Shown piece after piece: positions 5,446 through 42,990 of a stretch of DNA of 64,000 bases (positions within the stretch are counted from its first letter, which is position 1; every line of letters begins with the position of its first letter). Source of the stretch: Methylophilus sp. 42. GTDB lineage: Bacteria; Pseudomonadota; Gammaproteobacteria; Burkholderiales; Methylophilaceae. The DNA is taken from positions 2,474,961 through 2,538,960 of the forward strand of contig NZ_KB913031.1 of NCBI RefSeq assembly GCF_000384155.1, in the 5' to 3' direction. Below the pieces are notes generated by a model. It saw only the letters and a list, made by a program, of their open reading frames with translations, was not told where the DNA came from and did not search any database. The position numbers were made by a program, and so were the translations under genes.

Positions 5446-5463
5446 TGGCATGTTCCGTGCCAA
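5446..5463 (-). promoter_or_regulatory. Sigma-54 promoter of the SsuD-like operon
   Basis: On the minus strand TTGGCACGGAACATGCCA has GG and GC separated by exactly 10 bases, the invariant spacing of -24/-12 promoters. It precedes the gene starting at 5376. The rest of the 340-base gap (5377-5716) holds the upstream element at 5582 and nothing else I recognise. Confidence 0.8.
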
Positions 5464-5581
5464 CTGTTTTACGGGTTAGCTTGGAAGTGATAAATAGTGC
5501 TATCTATATGAATATTAAAAACAATTAAACATTCAACAAATGTAGACACACCAGCAAGAAAAGCCGCAAATGCAACAGCAT

Positions 5582-5597
5582 TGTTGCCCTGCAAACA
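5582..5597 (-). promoter_or_regulatory. Putative activator site (TGTTG-N6-CAACA type)
   Basis: TGTTGCCCTGCAAACA differs from the shared element by one base and lies about 120 bases upstream of the -24 box at 5460. An adjacent CAACAGCATTGTTG adds a second inverted pair of half-sites. Confidence 0.55.
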
Positions 5598-5716
5598 TTT
5601 CCCCTACTTTAAGTGTTGTTATTACAACTACAAGATGCCTGTGAAAAACGATACTGCATAAATCGACGTGAGATAGGGAGCGCCATGGCCGTAGCAGCAC
5701 TCAACATCCTAAAGGA

Positions 5717-6175
5717 CTAATCCATACGTTTCTGTTGACTGACAGGCACAGCAAGATATGCCCCAATATCTTTAAGCACGCGTTGCTCAAGTACGCCAAC
5801 AGTCACTTCTACACCTGCCGCCCTGAGAATATCAACACCTGCGCCAGCATTACGAGGGTCAGGATCAAGCGTGGCGATGACTACCCGTTTAATGCCACTG
5901 GCTGCCAGCGTTTTCGCACACGACGGCGTTCTACCATGAAATGCACACGGTTCCAGTGTCACAAAGGCCGTCAACTCAGACAGGTCACCTGACACCTTGG
6001 ACAACGCCATGGCTTCTGCATGCGGCTGCCCAGGTGACTGCGTATAGCCGCTCGCGACCACCCTGCCCTCCTTCACCAGCACACATCCGACCGGAGGATT
6101 GGGGCGACACGCAGGCCATGCCTGGCGGCCTACCCGCAAGGCATGATGCATGAAGTATTCGCAAAACGAAGACAC
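5717..6175 (-). CDS. Stand-alone RibD-type pyrimidine deaminase domain
   Basis: 152 residues of the zinc-dependent cytidine/deoxycytidylate deaminase fold, closest to the N-terminal domain of riboflavin enzyme RibD: PNPPVGCVLV at the start, the catalytic HAEAMAL, and the zinc cysteines in EPCAFHGRTPSC. The C-terminal reductase domain of RibD is absent, so this is deaminase only. In riboflavin synthesis such an enzyme deaminates the diamino-pyrimidinone ribosyl phosphate. Its place beside a nitroreductase and among flavin monooxygenases suggests extra flavin supply, but another deaminated substrate is possible. Confidence 0.8.
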   Translation of the reverse strand: MSSFCEYFMHHALRVGRQAWPACRPNPPVGCVLVKEGRVVASGYTQSPGQPHAEAMALSKVSGDLSELTAFVTLEPCAFHGRTPSCAKTLAASGIKRVVIATLDPDPRNAGAGVDILRAAGVEVTVGVLEQRVLKDIGAYLAVPVSQQKRMD

Positions 6176-6198
6176 ACTATTAACCTTTCACAGGATGA

Positions 6199-6801
6199 TT
6201 ATTCTGCAAAGCTAAACTTGCCTTCGGCAACAAACTTTTCAACCGGTTTTCTTGGCGTGGGCTGCTCGCGCTCATGAAAGTCTTCTGGCAACACAGACTT
6301 ATCCGCCTGTTTACCAACGGCAATCAGGATTTCTACTTGGTAACCTTCTGGCACGCCTAACACTTCTGGCGCAGCATCACGGTTAAAGCCACCAATCGCC
6401 CGTGTGCGCCAGCCCAGTTGATAGGCCTGGAAAGCCAGGCTGGCCCATGCCGCACCTGCGTCTAAAGAATGATTTTTTAATGGCGATGCTGCCGTCTCGC
6501 CCGGGCGCACATGTGTCTTTTTGGAAACCAGTGCAATCAGCACAGCGGCGCGATTGACCCAGCGCTGGTTGTTCTCGTTGAGCAATGCAAACAAATCGTC
6601 CCAGTGTGCAGAGCCATTTTTAGCATAAATAAAGCGCCAGGGTTGCGAGTTATTGGCCGAGGGGGCCCAGCGCGCGGCTTCAAACAGGCTGAGCAAAGTG
6701 GCGTCATCAATCGTCTCGCCGGTGTAGGCGCGTGGTGACCAGCGGTCAATAAAGATTGAAGCCACTTGATGTGGGGCATGTCGATTAGATAGTTGTGTCA
6801 T
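6199..6801 (-). CDS. Nitroreductase family protein
   Basis: A 200-residue FMN-binding nitroreductase fold protein. The FMN contact RWSPRAYTG and the ARWAPSANNSQPW segment are typical, as is the C-terminal GGFNRDAAPEVLGVPEG. These enzymes reduce quinones, nitro compounds, enones or flavins with NAD(P)H. GGAGAG lies 5 bases before the ATG. It is 24 bases upstream of the RibD-like deaminase gene and 95 bases downstream of yejA on the same strand, so it may be reached by read-through from the sigma-54 promoter of the yej operon. Its substrate here is unknown. Confidence 0.85.
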   Translation of the reverse strand: MTQLSNRHAPHQVASIFIDRWSPRAYTGETIDDATLLSLFEAARWAPSANNSQPWRFIYAKNGSAHWDDLFALLNENNQRWVNRAAVLIALVSKKTHVRPGETAASPLKNHSLDAGAAWASLAFQAYQLGWRTRAIGGFNRDAAPEVLGVPEGYQVEILIAVGKQADKSVLPEDFHEREQPTPRKPVEKFVAEGKFSFAE

Positions 6802-6895
6802 ATGACTCTCCGGATGTCATCTCAAAATAGGTCAAATTGCATCACCCTCGCATCCCATGAGAATGTGAGTAATCACACAGAATGCATGTTTGTTT

Positions 6896-8764
6896 TTAAT
6901 GCGAGGACGTTGGTATGGCTGCATGACTATCCCACCAGTAGGCAAGCACCCACTCTTGCGCACCGTAGTACTTGGGCAGCACTTGCGGGCGTTTTAAACG
7001 TTGGTGATAGATCATGTAATGCTTGGTCAGGTAGCGCCACGGAATGACGTAATGGCTATGCACCAGCACGCGGTCCAGTGCATGTGCGGCTATTTCCAGT
7101 TCATGCTGGCTATCGGCATCCAGTAGCTTCTGGATCAGCGCATCCAGCACCGGCGACTTCACACCAATCACGTTTTCCGAGCCCGGGACATCAGCATCCT
7201 TGCTGTTGAACTGACGCCAGAGCTCAGCACCAGGCATTCTGGCCTCGCGTAATGCAATGGTCGTGTAATCATAATCAAACTTACTCATCTGGCTGCGCGC
7301 GGTGGCCGCATCCGCTACCCGTTTGACGACTATCATTCCCAGCTTGGTCATATTCAAGCACACGGGATCCATATAAGGCGTCTGCCCGCGGTTAGCAAAA
7401 GTCACCTCAATCACAAACGGTTCGCCTTTGGCGTTACGCAACACGCCATCACGGTTATGCCAACCAGCCTGGCCTAACAATTCCAGCGCCTTGGTCAGGC
7501 TTTGGCGGATACTGCCAGGTGGTTTTGTATTCGGCTGCTCCAGCATGGGGCCAAACACCTCTTTCGGTAACTGGTCACGGTAGGGCTCCAAAATTGCCAA
7601 CTCTTCCACGCTGGGCACACCCTTGGCCGCCAATGGGCTATAGGCAAAATAGCTATTCACACGCTTGAATTCGTTATCAAAGATCTTCTGGTTCATAAAC
7701 TCGAAGTCCATGGCGTAGTTTAAGGCCAGCCGTACGCGCGGATCCTGGAATTTTTCGCGGCGCAGATTCACAATCCAGCCATTCATGGCAACCGGATTCT
7801 GGTGCGGCACCAGCTCCTTGACCAGTTCGCCTTCATCAAAGCGCTTGCCAATATACTGGCAGCACCAGTAACGCATTTTGTTTTCGTTCAAAAAGTCAAA
7901 GTCCCCCGCACGCAGCGCGGCGACCATGGTGTCAGTGTCTTTATAAATGCGGTAAATCACGCGTTCAAAGTTGTAACTGCCCGCGCGTGACGGCACCTGA
8001 TTACCCCAATAGGCAGGATTGCGTCTATAAGCCACATCTTGCCCGCTGACCGCGCGCTCGATTAAATAAGGCCCGGAGGCCACCGGGATTTCGAGGCCGA
8101 TCTTGTTAAATGGCACACGGCTACCATCCGCTTTCAATCCCCACTTGGGCGAAAATATTGGCAGGCTGCCTGCCACAAACGACAAATCCCTGCCCTTGCG
8201 TTTAAACTCAAAATGCACGGTTTGTGCATCAATCACCGTCAGTGATTTAATCTCTGAGAAATAAGCCTTGAAGCGTGGATTACCTTCTTTATTGGTCAAG
8301 GTATCAAACGAATATTTGACCTCTTTGGCCGTGACCGGGTCACCGTTGGAGAACTTGGCAGACGGATTGATATGAAACGTCACGGCACTGAAATCCGGCG
8401 CCAGCTTGATGTCGTCGGCCAGCAAGCCATATTGGGTATTGATCTCATCCAGGCTGTATACCGTCAGTGTTTCAAACATCTGTTCAATCAGGCCGGGGGC
8501 TGGCTTGCCTTTAAGGCTGAATGGATTGAATTTATCAAAGCCGCTGTTCTGGCTGATCACGGCAAAACGAATCTGGCCGCCTTTGGGGGCGTCAGGATTG
8601 GCATAGTCAAAATGTTTGAAATCGGCTGGATATTTTGGCTCGCCAAACTGAGCCACGGCGTGCGCAGACAAAGCACTATCCATAGGCAGCATGACACCTG
8701 TCACAAAAGACAGCGCCATCAGCAAGGCCCAGGGCAATAAAGAGTGATTGGATCGAATATGCAT
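6896..8764 (-). CDS. yejA: YejA-like periplasmic peptide-binding protein
   Basis: 622 residues, family 5 extracellular solute-binding protein of the YejA type. A signal peptide (MHIRSNHSLLPWALLMALSF region, cleavage near SAHA) is followed by GEPKYPADFKHFDYANPDAPKG, which YejA proteins share, and then by the family 5 fold. YejA feeds the YejBEF importer, which in enterobacteria carries oligopeptides and microcin C. It follows yejF by 16 bases, completing the gene order B-E-F-A. I start it at the ATG of 8764 because the signal peptide begins there; no strong ribosome site is seen. Its sulfur-type promoter suggests import of sulfur-containing peptides. Confidence 0.85.
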   Translation of the reverse strand: MHIRSNHSLLPWALLMALSFVTGVMLPMDSALSAHAVAQFGEPKYPADFKHFDYANPDAPKGGQIRFAVISQNSGFDKFNPFSLKGKPAPGLIEQMFETLTVYSLDEINTQYGLLADDIKLAPDFSAVTFHINPSAKFSNGDPVTAKEVKYSFDTLTNKEGNPRFKAYFSEIKSLTVIDAQTVHFEFKRKGRDLSFVAGSLPIFSPKWGLKADGSRVPFNKIGLEIPVASGPYLIERAVSGQDVAYRRNPAYWGNQVPSRAGSYNFERVIYRIYKDTDTMVAALRAGDFDFLNENKMRYWCCQYIGKRFDEGELVKELVPHQNPVAMNGWIVNLRREKFQDPRVRLALNYAMDFEFMNQKIFDNEFKRVNSYFAYSPLAAKGVPSVEELAILEPYRDQLPKEVFGPMLEQPNTKPPGSIRQSLTKALELLGQAGWHNRDGVLRNAKGEPFVIEVTFANRGQTPYMDPVCLNMTKLGMIVVKRVADAATARSQMSKFDYDYTTIALREARMPGAELWRQFNSKDADVPGSENVIGVKSPVLDALIQKLLDADSQHELEIAAHALDRVLVHSHYVIPWRYLTKHYMIYHQRLKRPQVLPKYYGAQEWVLAYWWDSHAAIPTSSH

Positions 8765-8780
8765 ATTGTTTTTATCTTGA

Positions 8781-10382
8781 TTAAAGCGAGGCTTGCACCA
8801 GTGACTGTGTATAAGGATGCTGTGGCGTGTGTATGATTTGCTCGGTATCGCCGGACTCAATGATTTCGCCATCCTTGAGCACATACACGCGGTGCGCGAG
8901 TGCCTGGATCACGGTCAGGTCATGGCTGATGAGCAAATAACTCAGCCCAAACTTTTTCTGCAGGCTCACTAGCAATTCCAGCACCTGTTTCTGGATCGAC
9001 ACATCCAGCGCTGAAGTCGGCTCATCGAGAATGACGACTTTGGGTGACAGCACAAATGCGCGCGCAATGGCAATACGCTGACGCTGGCCGCCAGAAAACT
9101 CATGTGGGTAAGAATCCAGCACCTGGGCACTGAGGCCTACTTCGGACAGCACCTGCACAATGCGTGTGTAACGCTCTTCGGCAGTCAGCGCTGGAAAATG
9201 CAACTCCAGCCCCTCGCCGACAATCTGGCGGACGGTCTGCCGCGGTGACAATGAGCCGAACGGATCCTGGAACACCACTTGCAACCTGGCGCGCATTTCG
9301 CGCTGCAAACGCTTGCTCAGTTGATACAGCGGTGCGCCATCAACTTCGATGGTGCCCGACTTGACCTTGATCAGGTTGAGCACAGCCTGCGCCAGTGTCG
9401 ACTTGCCTGAGCCTGACTCGCCGACGATGCCCACAGTTTCACCTTCACGCAGCGTCACATCTGCGCCATGCAAGGCAGTAAAGCTGTGCGATTGCAACAA
9501 ACCACGCCAGCCTTTGCGGGGCAATGGATACTCCACGCGCAGTTTGCGTGCCTCCAGCAAGGTTTTAGCATCACTGGCCACCGGTAACACATTGCGCTCG
9601 GGGATGCTGTTAATCAGCTTGATGGTGTAAGGATGTTGCGGCTGCGCAAACAAGGTTTGCGTATCGGCGGTTTCCACCAGGCGGCCACGCTCCATGACCG
9701 CCACCCGGTGTGCAAATTTACGCACCAAGTTGAGGTCATGCGTAATCAGCAGGATCGCCATCCCCTGCGTGCCATTTGCACGCACGTCTTCTTCCTGCAG
9801 TTCAATCAGTAATTTGACAATGCGTGCGCGGATGGTCATATCCAGTGCGGTGGTCGGCTCGTCGGCAATCAGCAGCTTGGGTTTGCAAGACAAGGCCATG
9901 GCAATCATGGCGCGTTGGCGCTGGCCGCCCGATAACTGGTGCGGATAACTGTTGATGTTTTTTTCTGGTTGGCGGATGCCGGTGCGCGTGAGCAATTCCA
10001 GCGTTTTCTGTGTTGCTTCAGCACGTGACAAGGCCTGATGCGCAATAATGGTTTCCACAATCTGTTCGCCAATGGTGAACAAAGGATTGAGTGCCGTCAT
10101 TGGCTCCTGGAAAATCATGGCAATGTCGGCGCCACGTACACGCTGGATGTCACGTGCGGATTTTTGCAGCAGGTTTTCGCCGTTAAACACGATCTTGCCG
10201 CTCAATTGCGCCGCTTCGACCAGCTTTAAAATCGAGAGTGCCGTCACGGTTTTACCCGAGCCAGACTCACCTACCAGTGCCAGCCGCTCGCCGCCTTGTA
10301 TGGTCAGGTTCAGTTGTTCAACTACGGTTTTCTGGTCAAAACGGGCCGAGAAATTCTCTATGGATAATAATGGCTGTGTCAT
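8781..10382 (-). CDS. yejF: YejF-like double ATPase of peptide importer
   Basis: 533 residues with two complete ABC ATPase domains in one chain. The first has Walker A GESGSGKT, signature [15 protein letters not shown] and Walker [13 protein letters not shown]; the second has [23 protein letters not shown] and [11 protein letters not shown]. Both are canonical, as in YejF/DppDF-type proteins, and the C-terminal [12 protein letters not shown] is typical of oligopeptide transport ATPases. It would energise YejB-YejE in the inner membrane. The start overlaps the yejE stop by one base. Confidence 0.92.
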
Positions 10383-11443
10383 TACAACGTCCCGCCTTGT
10401 CTGGCATCAGAAATGCGGGTATCCAGCGCATTACGCAGCGCCTCGCCGGTAAAAGTCAGTAACAGCAACGTCAGTACCAACACACTAAAAGAAGACAGTG
10501 CAATCCACCAGGCATCGAGGTTTTCCTTGCCTTGTAGCAGCAACTGCCCCAGGCTGGGCGCTGGTGCAGTCACGCCCAGGCCGAGAAAATCCAGGCTGGC
10601 CAGCGCCATAATGGCGGCGCTCATACGAAACGGTAAAAAGGTGATCACCGGTGTCAGGCTGTTAGGCAGAATATGGCGCCAGATAATCTGTGTGTTGGAT
10701 AAGCCCAGCGCCCTGGCAGACTTCACATATTCAAGCTGGCGATTGCGCAAAAACTCGGCGCGGACATAGTCAGACAACGTGATCCAGCCGAACAGCGACA
10801 ACAAGCCAAACAGCAACAGCAAACTGTGATCAAAAATCGAGGCAAAAATAATCAGCAGGTATAACTCCGGCATGGAGCCCCAGATATCAATCAGGCGCTG
10901 TATCACCAGGTCGGTCTTGCCAGCAAAATAGCCTTGCACAGCACCAAAAAAGATACCCAGCACCACACCAACCGCAGTCAGGCCCAGCGCAAACGTGACT
11001 GAGACGCGGAAGCCATAAATGAGCCTGGCCAGAATGTCATAACCGGCAATATCGGTACCTAGCAGGTTTTCATCATCCGGCTTGCCAGGATAATGCTCGG
11101 CCTTGGAAAAATAGTTGAGTGTGTCGTAGTAATAAGGGTTGAGCGGATAAATGGCAAAATTGCCCGCTTTGCTCAGTTGTGCCTTGATAAACGGGTCGTG
11201 GTAGTCGGCCTTAATAGGTAAATTGCCGCCGAAGATGGATTCCGGATACTCATTGAGTAAAGGGAAATACCATTGCTGCTCATAACGCACCACCAGCGGC
11301 CGGTCATTGGAAATCACTTCCCCGGCCAGGCTCAGCACATACAGTGCCACAAATACAATCAGGCTCCAGTATCCCAGGCGATTGCGCTTGAAGCGCTGCC
11401 AATTGCGACGGGCAGGAGAAAGATGGGGAATAACTTGACTCAT
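10382..11443 (-). CDS. yejE: YejE-like permease
   Basis: 353 residues, an inner-membrane permease of the oligopeptide (BPD transport) family. It has one N-terminal helix, a long periplasmic insert with NEYPESIFGG as in YejE, and then five helices with the ATPase-coupling loop RALGLSNTQIIWRHILPN. I choose the ATG at 11443 because GGAG lies 6 bases upstream and the sequence from MSQVIPHLSPARRNW matches the family start. It pairs with YejB. Confidence 0.9.
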   Translation of the reverse strand: MSQVIPHLSPARRNWQRFKRNRLGYWSLIVFVALYVLSLAGEVISNDRPLVVRYEQQWYFPLLNEYPESIFGGNLPIKADYHDPFIKAQLSKAGNFAIYPLNPYYYDTLNYFSKAEHYPGKPDDENLLGTDIAGYDILARLIYGFRVSVTFALGLTAVGVVLGIFFGAVQGYFAGKTDLVIQRLIDIWGSMPELYLLIIFASIFDHSLLLLFGLLSLFGWITLSDYVRAEFLRNRQLEYVKSARALGLSNTQIIWRHILPNSLTPVITFLPFRMSAAIMALASLDFLGLGVTAPAPSLGQLLLQGKENLDAWWIALSSFSVLVLTLLLLTFTGEALRNALDTRISDARQGGTL

Positions 11444-11456
11444 GATGACTCCGGCC

Positions 11457-12518
11457 TTACGAATCTTGACTATCAAACTTGATGCGGGGATCCACCAATA
11501 CGTAAGCAAAATCGCCCAGCAACTTGATAAACAACCCCACTAAGGTAAACAGATATAGCGTGCCCAGTACCACCGGGTAATCACGGCTATTAATGGATTC
11601 AAATGAAAGCAGGCCCAGGCCATCTAGGGAGAACAGAGTCTCGATCAGCAGGCTGCCGGTAAAAAAAGCCATGATGAACGTAGCAGGGAAGCCCGTGATC
11701 AAGGGCAATAAAGCATTTCTGAACACATGCTTCCACAAGACCTGGCGCTCGGACAAACCTTTGGCACGCGCCGTCAGCACATACTGGCGGCGGATTTCTT
11801 CAAGAAAGGTGTTTTTCGTCAGCAGTGTTTTGAACGCAAACGTGCTGACGACAGAAGCCGTCACCGGCAAAGTGATATGCCACAAGTAATCGGTGGTTTT
11901 GGCCAACGGGCTGAGTTCAGCCCAGTTATCCGAAGTTAAACCACGCAGCGGAAACACGTCCCAGAACGACCCCCCGCCAAACAGTACAATCAACAGCACA
12001 CCTAATACAAAACCAGGAATAGCATAACCAAACAGCACCAGGAAACTGGTGATAAAGTCAAAACTGCTGCCCGCCCTGACCGCTTTGGCGACGCCTAATG
12101 GCACTGCAATTAGATAGGTCAATGTAAACGTCCAGATGCCCAGTGCCACTGAAACGCCTAATTTATCCTTAATCAGATCCCAGACACTCTGATTGCGGAA
12201 ATAACTTTCTCCCAGATCAAAGTGCGCATAATTCACCAGCATCTGCCAGTAACGTTCCAGCACAGGCTTATCAAACCCATACAAAGCAGTAAGTTGTTCA
12301 ACCTGCTGCGTATCGATGCCCTGCCTGCCACTATAACTCCAGCCACCTGTGCTGGAAGAACCATCAGCACCTGAGCGTGCGTCTTGTGCATCAATTTGCG
12401 CAATGGCACTATCGACCGGCCCGCCGGGCACAAACTGGGTCACCAGAAAAGTGAGTGTCATCACCCCGATCAGGGTGGGTATCATCATCAGCAAGCGTTT
12501 TAACAGGTAATGCCACAT
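11457..12518 (-). CDS. yejB: YejB-like permease
   Basis: 353 residues with the start typical of oligopeptide permeases, MWHYLLKRLLMMIPTLIGV, then FVPGGPVDSAI. About six membrane helices are present, and the coupling loop reads RAKGLSERQVLWKHVFRNA. This is the first gene of the yejBEFA operon. Upstream (12569-12586) is a -24/-12 promoter with an activator-type element at 12694. No strong ribosome site is visible before the ATG. Confidence 0.9.
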   Translation of the reverse strand: MWHYLLKRLLMMIPTLIGVMTLTFLVTQFVPGGPVDSAIAQIDAQDARSGADGSSSTGGWSYSGRQGIDTQQVEQLTALYGFDKPVLERYWQMLVNYAHFDLGESYFRNQSVWDLIKDKLGVSVALGIWTFTLTYLIAVPLGVAKAVRAGSSFDFITSFLVLFGYAIPGFVLGVLLIVLFGGGSFWDVFPLRGLTSDNWAELSPLAKTTDYLWHITLPVTASVVSTFAFKTLLTKNTFLEEIRRQYVLTARAKGLSERQVLWKHVFRNALLPLITGFPATFIMAFFTGSLLIETLFSLDGLGLLSFESINSRDYPVVLGTLYLFTLVGLFIKLLGDFAYVLVDPRIKFDSQDS

Positions 12519-12568: not shown

Positions 12569-12586
12569 TTGCAGTTTCCGTACCAA
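12569..12586 (-). promoter_or_regulatory. Sigma-54 promoter of yejBEFA
   Basis: Minus-strand TTGGTACGGAAACTGCAA has GG-N10-GC spacing. It lies about 55 bases upstream of the yejB ATG. Confidence 0.75.
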
Positions 12587-12693: not shown

Positions 12694-12709
12694 TGATGCG
12701 CTGCCAACA
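12694..12709 (-). promoter_or_regulatory. Putative activator site upstream of yejBEFA
   Basis: TGATGCGCTGCCAACA on the + strand matches TGTTG-N6-CAACA with one change, about 110 bases from the -24 box. The same variant TGATG...CAACA recurs at 29255. Confidence 0.5.
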
Positions 12710-12729
12710 GCTGCGGATGGCAGCTGTTG
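12705..12729. repeat. Inverted repeat after cytochrome b561 gene
   Basis: CAACAGCTGC (12705-12714) and GCAGCTGTTG (12720-12729) form a perfect 10-base stem with a 5-base loop, just past the cytochrome b561 stop on the minus strand. There is no T tract, so it may be a weak terminator. It overlaps the activator-type element and carries CAACA/TGTTG half-sites itself. Confidence 0.6.
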
Positions 12730-12746
12730 CAGGAAACACATTTAAA

Positions 12747-13289
12747 TCAGTGACGGGGAGAGCTAAACCAGAGTCGATTAATCAAACCATTTTTTTGCAC
12801 AAACTGGTGCCAGACAAACGCGGCAACATGCAGGCTCAGCAACCCGGCCAACACATAGGCGGTCACACCATGCCAACCCATGATCTGGTGTGCCAGATCT
12901 TTATCGATAGCAAACAGCGGTTCCCAATGAAACACAAACAGGTTAAAGCCATGATTAAATGCGCTCGCTAACAACCCAGCACCTGGCACAACAAGGATCA
13001 GCGCATAAATAAAAATATGCGCATAATGTGCCAACTGCACTTGCCAGCGGCTGCCCGGCACATGATCCGGCACGGCATGCGTGAGGCGCCAGTAGATTCT
13101 GAACAGTACCAGCGCAAATACAATGAGACCGAATGACTTGTGATAGTTGTAGATGAGTTTGCGCAGCGGCGTTTTAGGCAGGTCAGGCATCAAGAAACCG
13201 ACCACTAACAGGCCAATAATTAACAGTGCCAACAACCAGTGCAGCACAATCGCGGTGTTGTTATAACGTTTGAGGGTACGCGTTTGCAT
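12747..13289 (-). CDS. Cytochrome b561 family protein
   Basis: A 180-residue di-heme cytochrome b561 with four membrane helices. Conserved histidines that could ligate heme occur in AIVLHWLLAL, NYHKSFG and the later helices (QIMGWHGV, LLSLHVAA). Bacterial members such as CybB pass electrons from quinol to partners in the inner membrane. It is the last gene after the aldolase-like and DszA-like genes, so it may serve a redox step linked to that operon; the partner is unknown. Confidence 0.88.
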   Translation of the reverse strand: MQTRTLKRYNNTAIVLHWLLALLIIGLLVVGFLMPDLPKTPLRKLIYNYHKSFGLIVFALVLFRIYWRLTHAVPDHVPGSRWQVQLAHYAHIFIYALILVVPGAGLLASAFNHGFNLFVFHWEPLFAIDKDLAHQIMGWHGVTAYVLAGLLSLHVAAFVWHQFVQKNGLINRLWFSSPRH

Positions 13290-13297
13290 AAAACACC

Positions 13298-15561: not shown

Positions 15562-15579
15562 TGGCAAACAACATGCCAA
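15562..15579 (-). promoter_or_regulatory. Sigma-54 promoter of aldolase-DszA-cytochrome b561 operon
   Basis: Minus-strand TTGGCATGTTGTTTGCCA has GG-N10-GC spacing and a TTTGC -12 box. The leader to the ATG at 15395 would be about 155 bases. Confidence 0.75.
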
Positions 15580-15731
15580 CGTCATCTGCGCCACCGCGTG
15601 ATATCGCTACAGCCCTGTATCTACGAGGCTGCTCAGCCTTTTCACACCCCTGCTCAACGCTAGCGCACATCAAACAAACAGTGCTGCTATCAACATCACA
15701 CTGCTCATCTGGCAACACACCATGCCTGTTT

Positions 15732-15747
15732 TGTTGCTGTTGCAACA
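15732..15747 (-). promoter_or_regulatory. Putative activator site, perfect TGTTG-N6-CAACA
   Basis: TGTTGCTGTTGCAACA is an exact match to the shared element, about 155 bases upstream of the -24 box at 15577. Its centre repeats the half-site, so binding could occur in two registers. Confidence 0.6.
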
Positions 15748-15959
15748 AATATCCATACTTATCGCGGGGATGTCGTTTTCTGGAGGGTGCGACCTGCTTT
15801 TGTGCTAGCCAAGCCAACTATTTTTCTGCTGAATACCTGGCCTTTTTCACGCGCTCTCCCGTCAAGAATGCCGCCCGGGATGATCTGTTGAGAAAGTCAT
15901 CCAGATTGCTTACAAGTGTTCATTCAGCAACATTCTGCCTCTTAACTGTTTGCGAAAAA

Positions 15960-15975
15960 TGTTGCTAACAAAACA
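15960..15975 (+). promoter_or_regulatory. Putative activator site upstream of TonB receptor
   Basis: TGTTGCTAACAAAACA matches the shared element with one change, about 80 bases upstream of the -24 box at 16054. The same variant right half (AAACA) occurs at 5582. Confidence 0.55.
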
Positions 15976-16051: not shown

Positions 16052-16069
16052 TTGGCACGATTCATGCCC
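16052..16069 (+). promoter_or_regulatory. Sigma-54 promoter of TonB receptor gene
   Basis: TTGGCACGATTCATGCCC has GG-N10-GC spacing with a consensus -24 box. The ATG at 16121 lies about 42 bases after the expected start site. Confidence 0.8.
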
Positions 16070-22302: not shown

Positions 22303-22324
22303 TGCTGTCAAACCAACAGTTAGC

Positions 22325-22365
22325 CGGGAGCGGATGTTGCACAGGCAACAAAGTGTCCGCTCCCG
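22325..22365. repeat. Inverted repeat enclosing an activator site
   Basis: CGGGAGCGGA (22325-22334) and TCCGCTCCCG (22356-22365) are a perfect 10-base inverted repeat. The 16-base TGTTG-N6-CAACA element sits exactly inside the left part of the loop. There is no T tract. It could end the exporter transcript, shape the activator site, or both. Confidence 0.65.
22335..22350 (+). promoter_or_regulatory. Putative activator site upstream of DszB1
   Basis: TGTTGCACAGGCAACA is an exact match to the shared element, about 65 bases upstream of the -24 box at 22415. Confidence 0.6.
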
Positions 22366-22412: not shown

Positions 22413-22430
22413 CTGGCACGCTTCCTGCAA
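22413..22430 (+). promoter_or_regulatory. Sigma-54 promoter of DszB1 operon
   Basis: CTGGCACGCTTCCTGCAA has GG-N10-GC spacing and a consensus TGGCACG -24 box; the expected start site is about 37 bases before the ATG at 22477. Confidence 0.8.
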
Positions 22431-29141: not shown

Positions 29142-29159
29142 CTGCACAAAATATGCCAA
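29142..29159 (-). promoter_or_regulatory. Sigma-54 promoter of DszB2 operon
   Basis: Minus-strand TTGGCATATTTTGTGCAG has GG-N10-GC spacing. The leader to the ATG at 28964 would be about 168 bases. Confidence 0.7.
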
Positions 29160-29254: not shown

Positions 29255-29270
29255 TGATGTAATTTCAACA
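29255..29270 (-). promoter_or_regulatory. Putative activator site upstream of DszB2
   Basis: TGATGTAATTTCAACA on the + strand matches the shared element with one change, about 98 bases from the -24 box; same variant as at 12694. Confidence 0.5.
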
Positions 29271-33888: not shown

Positions 33889-33926
33889 GCGGATGTCTAT
33901 CTACTTATTTGCTGTTGATGAATGAC

Positions 33927-34694: not shown

Positions 34695-34755
34695 CAACTT
34701 GCTACCTCATCCAGTTTCACTCTAGTCACTTTGTTTCACTATTCGCCTTGTTTCG

Positions 34756-35906: not shown

Positions 35907-35932
35907 AATATTTCCTTTTCAAATTAAAAAAA

Positions 35933-36772: not shown

Positions 36773-36789
36773 ACAAACTCCTAATAAAT

Positions 36790-37665
36790 CTAACTAATCT
36801 CGATGAAGTCGCTTAACACATCATCTTTAATGCGCTGAAACTCCGGTGAAGTACGATGGCGCGGTCTGGGTAAATCCACAGCCACCACGCGTTTGATACG
36901 CCCTGGATTGGCTTCCATGACCACCACGCGATCTCCCAGGAACACTGCTTCTTCGACGTCATGCGTAACCAGGATGGAAGTCGTGCCTTCGGTTTCCCAA
37001 AGACGTTGCAATTCTTGCTGCATCTTGAGGCGAGTCAATGCATCCAGTGCGCCAAACGGTTCATCCAGTAATAACAATCTTGGTTTTAGCACCAAGGCCC
37101 TGGCAATCGCGACACGCTGCGACATACCGCCTGAAATCTGATGAGGGAACGCCTGGGCAAATCCAGACAGGCCAACCAGCTCAATTTGGTGTTTCACGCG
37201 CGCATCCACCTCCTGCTGTGTCAGGCCAGAAGATTCCAGTGCCAACGCCACATTCTGCTCAACGGTCAGCCACGGGAACAAACGATGCTCCTGAAACACC
37301 AGGCCCCGGTCCAGTGAGGTCCCTGAGACTTTGTCACCCAGCCAGACAATGCTGCCGTCGTAAGCGCTATCCAGTCCTGCAATCAGCCTGAGTAAGGTCG
37401 ACTTGCCGCAGCCACTACTACCGACAATGGAAATAAATTCGCCTTTAGTCACTGCCAGTGAAAAGTCTGACAGCACGGTCAACGCTTTACCGTTGAGCTG
37501 GAAAGTCTTGGAAACGCCCTCTACCGCCAGCACGGCCGCCGAGCTCGCCAGTGACAGATGTTGCGAACCACGCAGGCCTAACGGTCTCACCGACGCATTG
37601 TCTTCGCCGAGGCTATCTACGTGCGCTTCATTGATCACACTTAAAGCGGTTTTAGGGCGACTCAT
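36790..37665 (-). CDS. ssuB: SsuB-like ABC transporter ATPase
   Basis: 291 residues of the SsuB/TauB/NrtD ATPase type. Walker A is GSSGCGKST, the Q-loop region is LVFQEHRLFPWLTVEQNV, the signature ISGGMSQRVAIARAL and Walker B LLLLDEPFGALDALTR. An N-terminal extension of about 45 residues precedes the domain. It is the first gene of the operon and starts about 24 bases after the predicted sigma-54 start site. It would power the two SsuC-like permeases. Confidence 0.9.
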   Translation of the reverse strand: MSRPKTALSVINEAHVDSLGEDNASVRPLGLRGSQHLSLASSAAVLAVEGVSKTFQLNGKALTVLSDFSLAVTKGEFISIVGSSGCGKSTLLRLIAGLDSAYDGSIVWLGDKVSGTSLDRGLVFQEHRLFPWLTVEQNVALALESSGLTQQEVDARVKHQIELVGLSGFAQAFPHQISGGMSQRVAIARALVLKPRLLLLDEPFGALDALTRLKMQQELQRLWETEGTTSILVTHDVEEAVFLGDRVVVMEANPGRIKRVVAVDLPRPRHRTSPEFQRIKDDVLSDFIEIS

Positions 37666-37698: not shown

Positions 37699-37716
37699 AC
37701 GCAATCCCTGTGCCAA
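37699..37716 (-). promoter_or_regulatory. Sigma-54 promoter of ssuB-tonB-exbBD-ssuCC
   Basis: Minus-strand TTGGCACAGGGATTGCGT has GG-N10-GC spacing and close to consensus -24 and -12 boxes. Confidence 0.8.
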
Positions 37717-37821
37717 GTTAAAAATTAATATTTATTACTTAATAATCATAAGGTTATATACATTCCAGCGAATACCCTGTATTGGGCAATGTTGTATATC
37801 CATCATCTGACGGCAGGCATG

Positions 37822-37837
37822 TGCTGGTATAGCAACA
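37822..37837 (-). promoter_or_regulatory. Putative activator site upstream of ssuB
   Basis: TGCTGGTATAGCAACA on the + strand matches the shared element with one change, about 108 bases from the -24 box. Confidence 0.5.
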
Positions 37838-37900: not shown

Positions 37901-38971
37901 TTATTGTTGTGATGCAATCCGGGACGGTGCCCAGAAAGTCTCCAGGTTCAACTCCTTTAAAGCTTTGTCGACAAAGCTTGCGTTAAGCAGTTGCTGAATA
38001 TCAATATCGTTTCGAATCAGGCCAGACTCACGCGCATAAGAGGCTGCACGTTTGTAATGATCCACCAGCGCCTGGTCATAAAGCGGTGACCAGCGGTCAC
38101 GCCAGCTCACGCTATCATCTTCATAGTCGCGCCTGACCACACTCTCAGGCTGCACCAGGCTAGCATAATCCTTGAGGTAGGTTTCCTTGTGCGCCTCTTG
38201 CGCTGCCCAATGGTTGGCTTTAATGAATGAGGTGACGATGGCTTGAGTGAGCTCTGGATGCTCTTTGACAAAGTCATTACGCGCCCACAAGCCACCCATC
38301 AGTTTCCAGTCCGGTGGGGCATTTTTGGTCGACCAGATGATTTTACCCACGCCTTTATCCACCAGGTTATAGGCATCACTTAAAGAGAAGAACGCATCTA
38401 CCGAGCCACTGGCCAATGCCGCAGCACCGACTTGCGGATTCACGTTCACAATCTTGAAGTCGGTCAGCTTGAAGCCATTTTTCTGCACCAGGTTGGCAAA
38501 CGGAATCTCCCACGGACGGCCACGGTGCAAGGCAATGCGCTTGCCTTTGAGGTCAGCAATCGTTTTTGCTGTTGAATTGGCGGGCACCACCAAATAAGAG
38601 TTACCGCTACGTCCCCACGGCGCGACTAATTGCACGCGTGGCTTGGAGCCGTTCAAAATAATCGGTGGTAAATCGCCATAGGCCGCGAAGTCTATGCTCT
38701 TGTTGGCAAAGGCTTCGTTGACGATGGGGCCGACCATCGCCGTGGCAGCAGGCACCCACTCCAGCTTGACGCCGCGCTTAGCCAAGGTTTCATCCAAGCC
38801 GGTTTCACTGGCCAACTCGGTGCTACCCAGATAGTGCGTCTTGCCATTGAGGTTATAAGCCACAGTGGCAATTCTCACCACTTTCGGGTCAGTTTCAGCA
38901 CTGTGGGCGCCTGACATAGTGAATGCAGTCACCGCCAATGCCGAAAATACATAGTTTAAAAATCTGCTCAC
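37901..38971 (-). CDS. SsuA-like periplasmic sulfonate-binding protein
   Basis: 356 residues with a clear signal peptide (MSRFLNYVFSALAVTAFTMS, cleavage near AHSA-ET), which the three DszB-like proteins lack. The NMT1/SsuA fold is marked by IDFAAYGDLPPIILNG, LKGKRIALHRGRPWEIPFA and ALASGSVDAFFSLSDAYN. The start is a GTG with AAGGAG upstream. It should deliver an organosulfur ligand to the SsuB/SsuC-like importer, which is encoded in the next transcription unit. It is third in the unit after the aldolase-like gene and DszB3. Confidence 0.88.
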   Translation of the reverse strand: MSRFLNYVFSALAVTAFTMSGAHSAETDPKVVRIATVAYNLNGKTHYLGSTELASETGLDETLAKRGVKLEWVPAATAMVGPIVNEAFANKSIDFAAYGDLPPIILNGSKPRVQLVAPWGRSGNSYLVVPANSTAKTIADLKGKRIALHRGRPWEIPFANLVQKNGFKLTDFKIVNVNPQVGAAALASGSVDAFFSLSDAYNLVDKGVGKIIWSTKNAPPDWKLMGGLWARNDFVKEHPELTQAIVTSFIKANHWAAQEAHKETYLKDYASLVQPESVVRRDYEDDSVSWRDRWSPLYDQALVDHYKRAASYARESGLIRNDIDIQQLLNASFVDKALKELNLETFWAPSRIASQQ

Positions 38972-39017
38972 ACTTACTCCTTATTTACGCTTAAGCCGCG
39001 AGGCTTACTTACTTGCT

Positions 39018-40076
39018 TCAGGCAACCGCCGCATATTGATGCAACTGCTGTTCTGCATCACGCAACGGCCTGAAATCAATCCACGCATCCAGGTCAAAAT
39101 CCTTGTCCAACAGGCCATGCACCAGCATAAAGTTCTTTTGCTGGCGGAACAGCTCTACGCGCTCCGGGGACAAATCAGGCGCCAGTTGCAAATGGAAGTT
39201 CTCACCATAAGCCGTCGCCACGCCGTCTTCGCCCGAGCGGGTTTCGGATTCGAGGATTTCGCGTACGCCTTTGAGGTTGCTTTTGGCCCAATCTGCCGCA
39301 CGCAAGGTCTGGTAGAGGAAACGCACCACCAGGTCATAATGATTGTCCAACAATGACTGATGTACGGTGATCGGACGCGGTGTGCCGTTATTGACGCGGC
39401 TGGACAGCTCAGGATAGCTATCAAGATCGATCCCCACCACAGCCCCCACACGCTTAGCGGCATCCACCGCAGATGCGCCTTTTACATATACCGCATCGAC
39501 CTTGCCTTCGATAAGTGCATCAAGGCCAGACCACAACTCACCTAGACCATTGGGGTTATCACGGCCATTACGATTACCACGACCAGAAGGCACCTCTACC
39601 AAAGTCACATCATCCAGCGTCAAGCCAGCGATATTCAAGGCGCCTTTATAACCATGCAGGCTCATGCCACGAGCAATACTGCTGCCGCGTACATGGCTGG
39701 CAATCGGATGCTCGATAAACGCCGGCAAAGCCAGGCGCAATCCCTTCAATTGTTCAGGCGTGGTAATGCCACTATCCGGCCTCACCAGGATCGCTTGCCA
39801 TTCATCAATCCAGGTCAAGCCAATCAGCTTGGTCGGTGCACCTTGTGCCTTGGCAGCCAGCGCCAGCAAGTTGCCACCCTCACGAATCAACGAAGGTAAC
39901 TCATGATCGTAATGATGCTTGGATAACTCTTTGGGCGCTTCTTGCAACGTGGCAATGTTAATGTTGTCACGCGCAAACTCTTCATTAAGCCAGCCTAATT
40001 TATAAGCCAGGCCCGTGGCAGTCGGCACCGGGCAACGGGTAAACCAGATTTGATCGATATGTTGTGCTGTGGTCAC
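39018..40076 (-). CDS. DszB-like putative sulfinate desulfinase 3
   Basis: 352 residues, no signal peptide, third member of the DszB-like set. Cys15 lies in IWFTRCPVPTATG, and HYDHELPSLIREGGN gives His and Arg 10 residues apart, as DszB needs for catalysis. It shares VDAVYVKGASA and RVNNGTPRPITVHQ with copy 2 and is closer to that copy than to copy 1. It sits between an aldolase-like gene and the periplasmic binding protein gene. Cytoplasmic sulfinate cleavage is the inferred role; a degenerate ligand-binding protein is the alternative. Confidence 0.75.
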   Translation of the reverse strand: MTTAQHIDQIWFTRCPVPTATGLAYKLGWLNEEFARDNINIATLQEAPKELSKHHYDHELPSLIREGGNLLALAAKAQGAPTKLIGLTWIDEWQAILVRPDSGITTPEQLKGLRLALPAFIEHPIASHVRGSSIARGMSLHGYKGALNIAGLTLDDVTLVEVPSGRGNRNGRDNPNGLGELWSGLDALIEGKVDAVYVKGASAVDAAKRVGAVVGIDLDSYPELSSRVNNGTPRPITVHQSLLDNHYDLVVRFLYQTLRAADWAKSNLKGVREILESETRSGEDGVATAYGENFHLQLAPDLSPERVELFRQQKNFMLVHGLLDKDFDLDAWIDFRPLRDAEQQLHQYAAVA

Positions 40077-40092
40077 TTGGTAGCTCCTGTGA

Positions 40093-40815
40093 TTACAAGT
40101 CGGAAGGACGCAACAAGCCTTCTTCTTTAGCCTGGTCGTAAAGCTTGGACATTTTCCATTGTTGCTTCAACACGCCTGGGCCATACTCACGGGAGCCACC
40201 CAGGGCCTCTGCCAGGGTTTGCAACTTGGCGCCTTCCTCCAGCAACAGAATAAACTCTGCCAGTTTGCGCAGACCTTGTTTACCCCATACCGTGGCACCA
40301 CCATTGGCTTCAAGAATCGCCGTGTGATGTGGATTAATCGCAATCTGGTCGAGGATAAAATCGACTTCCTGCTGGCGGCGGTCAATATAAATCGGTAACT
40401 CTTTAATCAGGTTAAAGCGCTGCACCGGCACATAACGGATAGGCAATGTGCGGTGTGTTTGTGCCCAGGCACCCAGGTAGGTGGAATGTATATGCGAAAT
40501 CGTGGTGACTTCCGGGCGCACCTGGAACAATTTGGTATAACGGCCAGCGCCTGCGCCACTGCCTTTGCCGGCATAGACCGTACCATCAAAGCCAACCACG
40601 GTTGCCTCAATTGGCTTGCCCTTGTTAAACGGGCCCGGGTCATTCACGATGATCAATTTGTCCTGGCCTGGCACGCGATGCACAAAGCCCACGGTGCCAT
40701 TGGCAGTAATGCTATCCGTCTCGCGAAAGACCTCAAAAGCCAGTTTGGCTTCCGCCACAGTTTCGTTTACGTAATGATCCAGATCCAGTTCAGTATTAAC
40801 AGTCACGACAGTCAT
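40093..40815 (-). CDS. Class II aldolase/adducin-fold protein 2
   Basis: 240 residues, paralogue of the gene at 14691. It keeps HxH (ISHIHSTY, residues 108-110), but the third-histidine loop is LEANGGATVWG, and the usual catalytic glutamate ahead of HxH is not evident (a glycine/arginine stretch, GAGAGRYTKL, is there). I use the ATG at 40815 because AAAGGA lies 6 bases upstream. It is first in the operon with DszB3 and the SsuA-like gene, about 34 bases after the predicted sigma-54 start. The reaction is unknown; canonical aldolase chemistry is doubtful. Confidence 0.78.
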   Translation of the reverse strand: MTVVTVNTELDLDHYVNETVAEAKLAFEVFRETDSITANGTVGFVHRVPGQDKLIIVNDPGPFNKGKPIEATVVGFDGTVYAGKGSGAGAGRYTKLFQVRPEVTTISHIHSTYLGAWAQTHRTLPIRYVPVQRFNLIKELPIYIDRRQQEVDFILDQIAINPHHTAILEANGGATVWGKQGLRKLAEFILLLEEGAKLQTLAEALGGSREYGPGVLKQQWKMSKLYDQAKEEGLLRPSDL

Positions 40816-40858
40816 TGTCAGTCCTTTCAAAATTCATGCGAAAACAACACGGACTACT

Positions 40859-40876
40859 TGGCAAAGACTGTGCCAC
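40859..40876 (-). promoter_or_regulatory. Sigma-54 promoter of aldolase2-DszB3-ssuA operon
   Basis: Minus-strand GTGGCACAGTCTTTGCCA has GG-N10-GC spacing and a near-perfect TGGCAC/TTTGC pair. Confidence 0.82.
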
Positions 40877-40940: not shown

Positions 40941-40956
40941 TGTTGCCCCGGCAACA
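40941..40956. promoter_or_regulatory. Putative activator site, perfect palindrome arms
   Basis: TGTTGCCCCGGCAACA has seven-base arms TGTTGCC/GGCAACA, the most symmetric copy of the shared element. It lies about 67 bases from the -24 box of the aldolase2 operon and about 155 bases before the activator gene, so it could serve both. A half-site TGTTG follows at 40959. Confidence 0.65.
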
Positions 40957-41108
40957 AGTGTTGCGATTAACACAGCAAAATGTTGAATTCCCGCCCATGA
41001 TCTGGCTTACCTTCAATATAACCAATATGAATATTGTTATAATTTATAGAACTTTGACTTATTAATGATCAATGTAATATAGTGACTCGCCTGTTAAATA
41101 AGGAGTCA

Positions 41109-42245
41109 ATGATGAGCGCACAACGATGGGATATCCGTGATTCGTACACCGAACGTACTGACCATGTGATCACACACCCCAATCCGTCTGCCGTCAGCTT
41201 GTCCGTGCGGGCAAGTGCACTGGTATTCAGCGATCCCAAATCGCAAAATCTGCTGTCTTTGATCGAAAGAATCGCTTCCAGCAATGCGACCGCGCTGATC
41301 ATTGGCGAAACAGGAACGGGTAAAGAACTCATTGCCCGCCATATCCACTCACTGAGCAACCGCAGAAACGGCCCGTTCCAGGCCATTAATTGCGGCGCTT
41401 TCTCAGAAACCCTGGTTGAGAGCGAGTTGTTTGGCTACGAAAAAGGCGCGTTTACCGGCGCCAACACCTCCAAAGTTGGCTGGTTTGAAACCGCCAATGG
41501 CGGCACACTGTTCCTGGATGAAATCGGTGACTTGCCACAGTCGACACAGGTCAAATTATTGCGCGTGCTGCAAGAGCGTGAAGTCGTGCGCGTAGGCTCA
41601 AGAAAGCCCATCCCGATTGATGTGCGCCTGATTGCGGCGACCAATGTGAACCTGGAAGAAGCCGTCAAAGCGGGACGTTTCCGCGAAGACTTGTATTACC
41701 GGATTAAAGTGGTGCCAGTTGAATTACTGCCATTGCGCGAGCGCCGTGGCGATATCCTGCCGCTGGTTGAGCATTTCCTGGCCGTATATCGCAATAAGCT
41801 GAACACTTCGGACCACAAACTGGCCCCCGAAACCACTTCGCTACTGATGGAATATCCGTGGCCGGGCAATATTCGTGAACTGGAAAACGTCATTCACCGT
41901 GCGGTACTGGTGAGTACCTCCGATACGCTTTATCCAAAAGATCTGAATTTACCCAAAATCAGCTTTAACCGGCCAGAGTTTACGTCTGATGAAGACAGCG
42001 GCATCACGGCACCACTGCCAAGCCGGGTCAGCTATGAGCGCCAAAGTGCGCTCTATAAATTGGAAAATATTCTCGAAGAGCTGTTTGAACAAGCCCCGGA
42101 AAACCTGTATGAGCTGATCAATGGCACCACGGTCAGCAAGGCTTATGAGCACAGTAAAAACAATCAGGTGCATACCGCCAAACTGCTGGGCATCAGCCGC
42201 AATATCCTGCGCGCCAGGTTAAAAGAACTCAACCTGATCGCATAA
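41109..42245 (+). CDS. SfnR-like sigma-54-dependent transcriptional activator
   Basis: 378 residues: a short N-terminus without any sensor domain, then the AAA+ domain with Walker A GETGTGKE (66-73), the sigma-54 contact loop GAFTGA (113-118) and Walker B GGTLFLDE (131-138), then a C-terminal Fis-type helix-turn-helix around NNQVHTAKLLGISRNILRARL. SfnR of Pseudomonas, a sensor-less activator for dimethyl sulfone use, has this layout. AAGGAG precedes adjacent ATGs at 41109 and 41112; the second is better spaced. I see no sigma-54 promoter of its own, so its expression is probably set by a sulfur regulator such as CysB. It is the likely activator of the nine promoters listed here. Confidence 0.88.
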   Translation: MMSAQRWDIRDSYTERTDHVITHPNPSAVSLSVRASALVFSDPKSQNLLSLIERIASSNATALIIGETGTGKELIARHIHSLSNRRNGPFQAINCGAFSETLVESELFGYEKGAFTGANTSKVGWFETANGGTLFLDEIGDLPQSTQVKLLRVLQEREVVRVGSRKPIPIDVRLIAATNVNLEEAVKAGRFREDLYYRIKVVPVELLPLRERRGDILPLVEHFLAVYRNKLNTSDHKLAPETTSLLMEYPWPGNIRELENVIHRAVLVSTSDTLYPKDLNLPKISFNRPEFTSDEDSGITAPLPSRVSYERQSALYKLENILEELFEQAPENLYELINGTTVSKAYEHSKNNQVHTAKLLGISRNILRARLKELNLIA

Positions 42246-42277
42246 AAAAAGAGGGGAATATATCCCCTCTTTTTTTA
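42243..42277. terminator. Bidirectional terminator
   Basis: An A tract plus GAGGGGA pairs with TCCCCTC plus a T tract. It serves the activator gene on + and the reductase gene on -. Confidence 0.9.
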
Positions 42278-42300
42278 TGCCGAATCTTGCAAACAACCTG

Positions 42301-42852
42301 CTAGGCAACCAGCGTTTCCGGCAAATTCTGCTTAATCAACACCGCGGCCTGTTCTAGCGCCTGGTCGATACGCTGTTCAATCACGGCACTGTCCAATTGG
42401 TAATTCGTGAACTCTGCATCCCGGGCATAAATGGTGGTCGGGATGGTGTAAATACCAAAAAAGCTGGCCAGACTTCTTAAGTGCGACTCCAGCACCAGCG
42501 CATGATGATCGCTGCCTCCTGTTGCCACCAAAATAGCAACTTTACCAGTGAGTTTCTTCGGGTCGACCAGATCAAAAAAGTGCTTGAGCAAGCCGGTATA
42601 AGAAGCTTTATACACCGGCGTGCCAATGACGATAATATCGGCCTGGTGCAGCTTATCGTAGGCTTGTGTTAATGCCGGTGGAAACTGGTTAAAGGACACA
42701 GTAGGCCCCAGATCTGCCGTCAGTTTGGAAATATCGATCACCTCACCCGGACTATGAAACTTCTGGCTGGCCTTGGTCACCACAGACTCCACCAGCGACA
42801 AGGTTCTTGAGGGTGCAGTAATATTTCCGGAGACTCCAATAATTCGTGGCAT
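42301..42852 (-). CDS. NADPH-dependent FMN reductase (SsuE/MsuE-like)
   Basis: 183 residues, flavodoxin-like. RIIGVSGNITAPSRTLSLVE matches the start of SsuE/MsuE proteins, and VIGTPVYKASYTGLLKHFFDLV and VATGGSDHHAL mark the flavin site. It supplies FMNH2 to the two-component monooxygenases, of which the window has three but no other SsuE-type reductase. I start it at the ATG of 42852, with AGGA upstream. It is a single-gene unit behind a sigma-54 promoter and activator element, ending at the shared terminator. Confidence 0.9.
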   Translation of the reverse strand: MPRIIGVSGNITAPSRTLSLVESVVTKASQKFHSPGEVIDISKLTADLGPTVSFNQFPPALTQAYDKLHQADIIVIGTPVYKASYTGLLKHFFDLVDPKKLTGKVAILVATGGSDHHALVLESHLRSLASFFGIYTIPTTIYARDAEFTNYQLDSAVIEQRIDQALEQAAVLIKQNLPETLVA

Positions 42853-42887
42853 TTCGATTTTCCTGATTAAACAATGTCTTGATTTAA

Positions 42888-42905
42888 CAGCAAATAAAAT
42901 GCCAG
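42888..42905 (-). promoter_or_regulatory. Sigma-54 promoter of FMN reductase gene
   Basis: Minus-strand CTGGCATTTTATTTGCTG has GG-N10-GC spacing with a TTTGC -12 box. Confidence 0.75.
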
Positions 42906-42974
42906 ATTTAAACCCTTCATAATCAATCACTTGAAAAACAGATGCTGCCAATTCAACAACAAACGTCGCCAAAA

Positions 42975-42990
42975 TGTTGGCTAGGCAACA
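42975..42990 (-). promoter_or_regulatory. Putative activator site upstream of FMN reductase gene
   Basis: TGTTGGCTAGGCAACA is an exact match to the shared element, about 72 bases upstream of the -24 box. Confidence 0.6.

Follow-up and report, generated by a model that had tools for sequence, protein, structure and literature searches.

Which regulator, acting through which DNA element, could govern the sigma-54-type promoters that recur across a 64,000-nucleotide stretch of the Methylophilus sp. 42 genome? This stretch (hereafter the window, that is, the whole DNA analysed) spans G000:C1:2474961-2538960, where G000 is the source genome, a single contig of 2,968,340 bases. The original prediction held that nine units with GG-N10-GC promoters, each preceded by a TGTTG-N6-CAACA element, form one organosulfur regulon with a sensor-less, SfnR-like activator encoded among them. 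The present analysis indicates that the window very probably holds most of a single sigma-54 regulon for organosulfur scavenging, with ten units and with a predicted mode of control in which dimers of the activator, here called A, bind the elements. The units, their common conserved element and the activator in their midst stand; the pairing of the elements, the tenth unit and the identity of the activator are additions or corrections.

Paired elements upstream of sigma-54 promoters

All nine promoters were recovered within 1–2 bases of the positions originally given, and all nine elements exactly where they had been placed, four of them exact (15732, 22335, 40941, and 42975) and the other five with one mismatch. 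The gap between element and promoter, originally put at 65–155 bases, measures 63–153. The second elements had been missed: seven of the nine units contain another copy, 30–32 bp away in six units (about three helical turns) and 43 bp away in U4 (four turns), and U8 has a weak copy in addition, whereas for U6 no clear second copy was found. The promoters and elements (window coordinates; each second element with its distance from the named one) are:

U1: sigma-54 promoter TGGCACGGAACATGC, 5448..5462, minus strand; named element 5582..5597, 1 mismatch; second element 5614..5629, 32 bp, 1 mismatch
U2: sigma-54 promoter TGGTACGGAAACTGC, 12571..12585, minus strand; named element 12694..12709, 1 mismatch; second element 12725..12740, 31 bp, 2 mismatches
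U3: sigma-54 promoter TGGCATGTTGTTTGC, 15564..15578, minus strand; named element 15732..15747, exact; second element 15702..15717, 30 bp, 2 mismatches
U4: sigma-54 promoter TGGCACGATTCATGC, 16053..16067, plus strand; named element 15960..15975, 1 mismatch; second element 15917..15932, 43 bp, 1 mismatch
U5: sigma-54 promoter TGGCACGCTTCCTGC, 22414..22428, plus strand; named element 22335..22350, exact; second element 22303..22318, 32 bp, 1 mismatch
U6: sigma-54 promoter TGGCATATTTTGTGC, 29144..29158, minus strand; element 29255..29270, 1 mismatch
U7: sigma-54 promoter TGGCACAGGGATTGC, 37701..37715, minus strand; named element 37822..37837, 1 mismatch; second element 37790..37805, 32 bp, 1 mismatch
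U8: sigma-54 promoter TGGCACAGTCTTTGC, 40861..40875, minus strand, divergent from activator A; named element 40941..40956, exact; weak second element 40959..40974, 18 bp, 2 mismatches
U9: sigma-54 promoter TGGCATTTTATTTGC, 42890..42904, minus strand; named element 42975..42990, exact; second element 42943..42958, 32 bp, 1 mismatch

A tenth unit, also overlooked, lies outside the window, 2 kb to its left (genome G000:C1:2472770-2474700), with elements at genome positions 2472770 and 2472802, the promoter TGGCACGAAGTTTGA at 2472868 and a gene for an MsbA-like ABC protein. The -12 box of this promoter is GA instead of GC and is identical, at equal distance, in the related genome G081.

The concern that the search itself had produced the elements was answered in their favor, the element being both enriched and promoter-linked in the window compared with shuffles, control stretches and a genome-wide pattern. 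The window contains 20 elements with at most one mismatch (mean 3.4, maximum 10 over 100 shuffles); elsewhere in the genome, 400 kb sampled as 20 stretches, both window flanks among them, contains 21, none of them exact, and 2 of these 21 are the pair of the tenth unit in the left flank. When a promoter-like site is required to match, besides GG and GC, 5 or more of the 7 sigma-54 core bases, 15 of the 20 window elements are located 45–220 bp upstream of such a site, compared with 2 of the 19 elements in 19 control stretches; conversely, of the 74 such sites in the window, 11 are preceded by an element, as are 4 of 250 in the same 19 stretches. Two of the 11, at 22507 and 27847, were set aside as shadows rather than units. 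The latter (27847-27861, with an element at 27892-27907) is present in four genomes, but its element lies inside the open reading frame (ORF) 27870-28964, so that its conservation is uninformative and probably reflects coding conservation.

The joint pattern of TGTTG-N6-CARCA followed after 50–110 bases by TGGYA-N8-GC, which takes in one element orientation and this range of gaps only, has four matches in 2.97 Mb, all in the window, at U5 (22414), U7 (37701), U8 (40861) and U9 (42890), and none in the reversed control. Searched for as a pair with 32-bp spacing (at most 3 mismatches in 20), the elements occur at five places in the genome, all within the 45-kb cluster at 2472770-2517950; the reversed control, again, has no match. 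The genome-wide count of single elements, which had been proposed as a check, discriminates poorly, with 10 exact copies of which 4 are in the window. The six outside copies were rejected as units, none having a sound promoter partner: four lack any GG-N10-GC site scoring at least 4 of 7 within 36–320 bases downstream, and the site in the other two cases, at 185 and 262 bases, is weak.

The spacing recurs beyond this genome. In eight regions around A from seven genera, most of which had been found through the 32-bp pattern, 17 of 26 neighbor distances (counted in the range of 16–60 bp) are 29–33 bp and 5 are 41–43; when 14 A regions are instead selected by their activator, without regard to the motif, spacings of 29–33 bp make up 16 of 25. 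In 18 control stretches, only three spacings occur, 36, 43, and 52. The NtrC sites at glnA are 32 bp apart.

Conservation in near relatives

The nine units were compared in G000, G081, G115, and G110, which yielded 35 of 36 orthologous promoters; the U2 promoter was not found in G115 and is therefore absent from the count, and the tenth unit was left out because it was compared in two genomes only. Across the four genomes, 83 of 90 half-site columns of the named elements and 68 of 80 of the second elements are invariant, as against 516 of 1,348 flank columns; the counts include two orthologues that had lost a good element. The central N6 is invariant in 21 of 54 columns of the named and 23 of 48 of the second elements, and the promoters in 120 of 135. 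Adding the tenth unit gives a similar result (87 of 100 second-site columns, 581 of 1,496 flank columns). Because the second copies played no part in the original prediction, their conservation is an independent test. In 20 of 24 comparisons between orthologues, the distance from element to promoter shifts by no more than 3 bases; in the remaining four it shifts by 9–16.

Activator A and its co-occurrence with the element pairs

Three features concern regulation:

41109..42245, plus strand: activator A, a sensor-less sigma-54 enhancer-binding protein of 378 aa
41018..41040, plus strand: dyad ATAACCAATATGAATATTGTTAT, 23 bp, upstream of activator A
25039-26088 of genome G000, outside the window: activator B, a second sensor-less activator

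The longest ORF of A opens at 41082 (a 387-aa frame), and the ATG at 41109 comes after AAGGAG. The AAA+ domain (PF00158, E=7.5e-72) begins at residue 48 of the 387-aa frame and contains GAFTGA; a C-terminal Fis-type helix-turn-helix (HTH) follows (PF02954, 25.8 bits, cut-off 22), and no sensor domain was found among the Pfam matches. The genome encodes RpoN (TIGR02395, 456 bits, cut-off 277) and seven strong matches to sigma-54 activators, of which the two in short frames are A and B.

Among 150 genomes of the family, 31 encode A (E<=2e-143, 65–100% identity), the next matches, at 56–60% identity, being paralogue B. Element pairs with at most two mismatches are present in 14 of the 31 genomes with A and in none of the 119 without it (Fisher 1.5e-11, kinship not being corrected for). 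The same-genus genomes G087, G099, and G105, which have B but not A, contain no such pairs. Pairs found only at three mismatches appear in 9 further genomes with A and 7 without, and, given that the reversed control matches in 9 of 150, are near chance level. The exact single element was rejected as a genome marker, for it does not separate genomes with and without A. In a class-wide search, 2 of 368 sampled genomes, besides the source genome, passed E<=1e-95.

A predicted mechanism

Enhancer-binding proteins bind as paired dimers on one face of the DNA, assemble into a ring and, by looping, reach the RpoN polymerase; ATP then drives opening of the promoter. The elements, the promoters, their pairing, their conservation and their co-occurrence with A are computed, whereas binding and activation by A and a sulfur signal are inferred. 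Upstream of each unit, dimers of A would occupy TGTTG-N6-CAACA or, in its wider form, TGYTG-N6-CARCA; sites separated by an integral number of turns, usually about three and sometimes four, would place two dimers on one face of the DNA, and the paired dimers would seed the AAA+ ring that contacts the RpoN-RNA polymerase at GG-N10-GC and opens the promoter.

Without a sensor domain in A, the input is most likely conveyed by the amount of this protein, so that the activator would itself be under expression control; its gene has an upstream region of its own, with a dyad retained in the nearest relatives. In Pseudomonas putida, the hierarchy runs from CysB through SfnR to the targets. The dyad ATAACCAATATGAATATTGTTAT, which recurs at the equivalent place in G115 and G081, is a possible candidate site for a LysR-type (CysB-like) regulator, and a CysB-family regulator is encoded in the genome (477.5, cut-off 402). 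From the dyad and this regulator together we infer CysB control, which makes a hierarchy from CysB to an SfnR-like activator the likeliest input. For the methylotroph family, the analysis provides a large predicted sigma-54 regulon with an operator and a regulator that can be put to the test.

Paralogue B and the operator code

The activator was originally taken to be SfnR-like; it is sensor-less and encoded among the units, as had been claimed, but it is a paralogue of SfnR in a clade of its own, not an SfnR orthologue. In a tree of 50 rows (49 different; no outgroup, and a long-branch warning for several outside rows), A and B form separate groups (91/92 and 99/99, respectively). A further split (96/94) places A together with Janthinobacterium on one side and, on the other, B, two P. 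aeruginosa proteins, Burkholderia, Paraburkholderia, Variovorax, and two further genomes; A fails to group with the SfnR-type proteins of Pseudomonas and Burkholderia in this unrooted tree.

Beside B are genes for SsuD (604 bits, cut-off 510) and DszC/SfnB-like proteins, and some 6 kb away those for SfnG (624, cut-off 383), MsuE (250, cut-off 212.5), and SfnB (646, cut-off 431), the latter locus with divergent sigma-54-like promoters and two TGCTG-N6-CAGCA elements in between. Together, the genome regions 23444-26088 and 17753-18029 cover B, divergent sigma-54-type promoters with TGCTG-N6-CAGCA elements, and the sfnG, msuE, sfnB, and ssuD genes. The MsuE-like gene adjacent to A scores 190.9 bits, below its cut-off, and none of the three luciferase-like (LLM) monooxygenase genes of the units reaches the SfnG cut-off (139.5 for ORF 3132-4292 and 91.4 for ORF 4312-5463). 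Grouping with SfnR-type proteins and residing with ssuD, sfnG, msuE, and sfnB, it is B, not A, that resembles an SfnR-type regulator.

The two paralogues are 58% identical, with near-identical recognition helices (SRN-I/V-L/V-R), and the residue directly after the helix is K in 27 of 27 A rows (26 different) and I in 15 of 15 B rows. Every promoter-linked TGYTG-N6-CARCA site in 15 B regions, 39 in total, has the form TGCTG-N6-CAGCA (here CC); some of these sites overlap, several regions are from close relatives, and the sites come from 13 of the 15 regions, no exact TGYTG-N6-CARCA site being found in those of G030 and G053. Neighboring dyads in B regions are 29–32 bp apart in 7 of 9 distances. 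The A regions are more heterogeneous: 12 of them, most found with the TGTTG-N6-CAACA (TT) pattern, contain 25 TT, 32 mixed and 4 CC among 61 sites, and the 14 not chosen by motif (L001, a duplicate of the G084 locus, being dropped) contain 6 TT, 15 mixed and 6 CC among 27 promoter-linked sites. These counts describe B as strict (CC) and A as mostly but not always T-bearing. The B regulon is similar to that of A in its sensor-less activator, divergent sigma-54-type promoters and dyad spacing, and differs in the TGCTG-N6-CAGCA element and in the I instead of K in the HTH.

The kinship of the two proteins raises the possibility that the elements are read mainly by B, or by A and B jointly, as a single SfnR regulon with two interchangeable activators. 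The near-identity of the helices, the single base per half-site by which the elements differ, the CC sites in A regions of some genera (the 6 of 27 above) and the TGTTG form at the P. aeruginosa msuE promoter, beside SfnR-type genes, all speak for this reading, but we regard it as unlikely: B regions hold the CC form exclusively, no promoter-linked CAGCA-type site was found in the window and its left flank, TGTTG-form pairs (at most two mismatches) follow A in 14 of 14 genomes, and the three genomes with B but not A lack them.

A broader scheme may be entertained, if tentatively, for the Methylophilaceae: two insulated sigma-54 sulfur circuits, in which B would read TGCTG-N6-CAGCA and A would read TGTTG-N6-CAACA, the latter with an importer for a larger organosulfur compound. 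The circuit of B would serve sulfones and sulfonates, and that of A the ten-unit system, in which the larger compound might enter via a receptor with its own TonB-ExbB-ExbD and exporter-fold ABC pairs acting as importers. With A and B in one genome, a natural experiment on the divergence of duplicated enhancer-binding proteins is at hand: the spacing rule is similar in both, each half-site differs by one base, and one diagnostic residue lies beside the recognition helix.

Gene content of the units

As originally claimed, sulfur or flavin enzymes and importers dominate among the genes of the units:

U1, ORFs 3132-4292 and 4312-5463 (the listed start of the second overlaps the promoter): two SsuD-like LLM monooxygenases
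U2, 5717-12518: Yej/Dpp-type ABC importer, nitroreductase-like and RibD-like proteins
U3, 12747-15395: class II aldolase-like protein, NtaA/DmoA-type LLM monooxygenase, cytochrome b561-like protein
U4, to 22302: TonB-dependent receptor, MsbA-like ABC half-transporter pair
U5, 22435-25711: SsuA-like binding protein, methyltransferase-like protein, peroxiredoxin, hydrolase-like proteins
U6, 27870-28964: SsuA-like binding protein
U7, 29286-37665: SsuB-like ATPase, TonB, ExbB, ExbD, two SsuC-like permeases, second MsbA-like pair
U8, 37901-40830: class II aldolase-like protein, two SsuA-like binding proteins
U9, ORF 42301-42972 (listed start overlaps the promoter): MsuE-like FMN reductase

On the right, the cluster is bordered by a gene for a relA-type GTP pyrophosphokinase (44075-46297).

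The two MsbA-like pairs (18624-22302 and 29286-33000) are interrelated, 18624 with 31132 at 54% and 20449 with 29286 at 57%. These heterodimer-like ABC pairs might be exporter-fold importers; among the matches listed for one of the proteins (60 of 237), PDB gave no support for import, these being ABC transporters mostly named as multidrug, bile-salt or lipid transporters. The predicted regulon would tie an outer- and inner-membrane uptake system to sulfur scavenging. With the SsuABCD and TauABC sulfonate uptake systems the window shares SsuA-, SsuB-, and SsuC-like proteins; unlike those, its proteins score below the curated cut-offs and are accompanied by a TonB receptor, TonB, ExbB, and ExbD. 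Much of this gene content is found again around A in other genera as well as in Janthinobacterium, but little of it in the stretch examined around A in G021 and the Methylotenera locus.

Gene content bears on the nature of the signal. A genuine A regulon might respond to something other than sulfur limitation, such as a specific substrate or iron, considering that the TonB receptor best matches a siderophore-receptor model (below cut-off) and that such a receptor together with MsbA-like ABC pairs is unusual for a plain sulfonate regulon. This seems slightly less probable still than reading by B, in view of the MsuE-like FMN reductase, four SsuA-like binding proteins, SsuB/C-like ABC proteins and three LLM monooxygenases, and of the many like genes that surround A in other genera and Janthinobacterium.

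Observations that weigh against the regulon and remaining alternatives

Several results count against a single, A-driven organosulfur regulon. Some orthologous sites have decayed, namely, U6 in G115 (2 mismatches) and U9 in G110 (2–3 mismatches). The A regions of G048 and G050 contain no exact TGYTG-N6-CARCA site, and pairs with at most two mismatches are missing from 17 of the 31 A-bearing genomes. Same-genus genomes contain about as many exact single elements when A is present (mean 9.1, n=9) as when it is absent (7.8, n=13). Among the loci examined, matches to the dyad ATAACCAATATGAATATTGTTAT were confined to G000, G115, and G081, and the two LLM proteins of U1 score far below both the SfnG cut-off and the SsuD cut-off of 510 (SsuD model: 278.5 for ORF 3132-4292, 174.8 for ORF 4312-5463).

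That the dyads are bound by another protein, CysB-like or some other repressor, and lie near sigma-54 promoters by coincidence is very improbable; palindromes can be used by many regulator families, but relatives mostly preserve the distance to the promoter, the spacing follows helical turns, and the same element precedes msuE beside SfnR-type genes in Pseudomonas. Chance or search bias, a natural suspicion given that the elements had been sought upstream of selected promoters, is practically dismissed by the shuffles, the control stretches, the genome-wide joint pattern and the conserved copies that had never been named.

Comparison with known systems

SfnR and the msu-sfn genes of Pseudomonas are reportedly the subject of Endoh 2003, Endoh 2005, Habe 2007, Kouzuma 2008, and Lundgren 2019. 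No description of the regulon proposed here was found in the open literature, to which this search extended, the subscription SfnR papers, including those on binding sites, being outside its scope. The Pseudomonas system shares with the window a sensor-less sigma-54 activator, MsuE, LLM monooxygenases and the element upstream of P. aeruginosa msuE; in contrast, the window activator falls outside the clade of the Pseudomonas and Burkholderia proteins, and its predicted regulon comprises ten units, among whose genes are a TonB-ExbB-ExbD set and MsbA-like pairs. The P. aeruginosa msu operon is grouped with sfnR1 and sfnR2 (PMC8234197), and its proteins as well as SfnR1 increase under sulfur starvation (PMC12581299). 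Tandem activator sites upstream of a sigma-54 promoter, as in the window, are also described for NtrC at glnA (PMC7408454). NtrC, however, is gated by phosphorylation, whereas A has no receiver domain.

The P. aeruginosa plasmid record NZ_CP137515, which does not use the names sfnR1 and sfnR2, encodes msuE, ssuD, an acyl-CoA dehydrogenase family gene and two sigma-54 regulators that are relatives of the activator; the exact TGTTGCCCGGGCAACA is located 99 bp before the sigma-54-type promoter TGGTACGGCCCTTGC of msuE. For G285, no TGYTG-N6-CARCA site was listed. In Janthinobacterium lividum (L002), mixed and CC elements are found beside relatives of the LLM genes, TonB receptor, binding proteins and permeases of the window.

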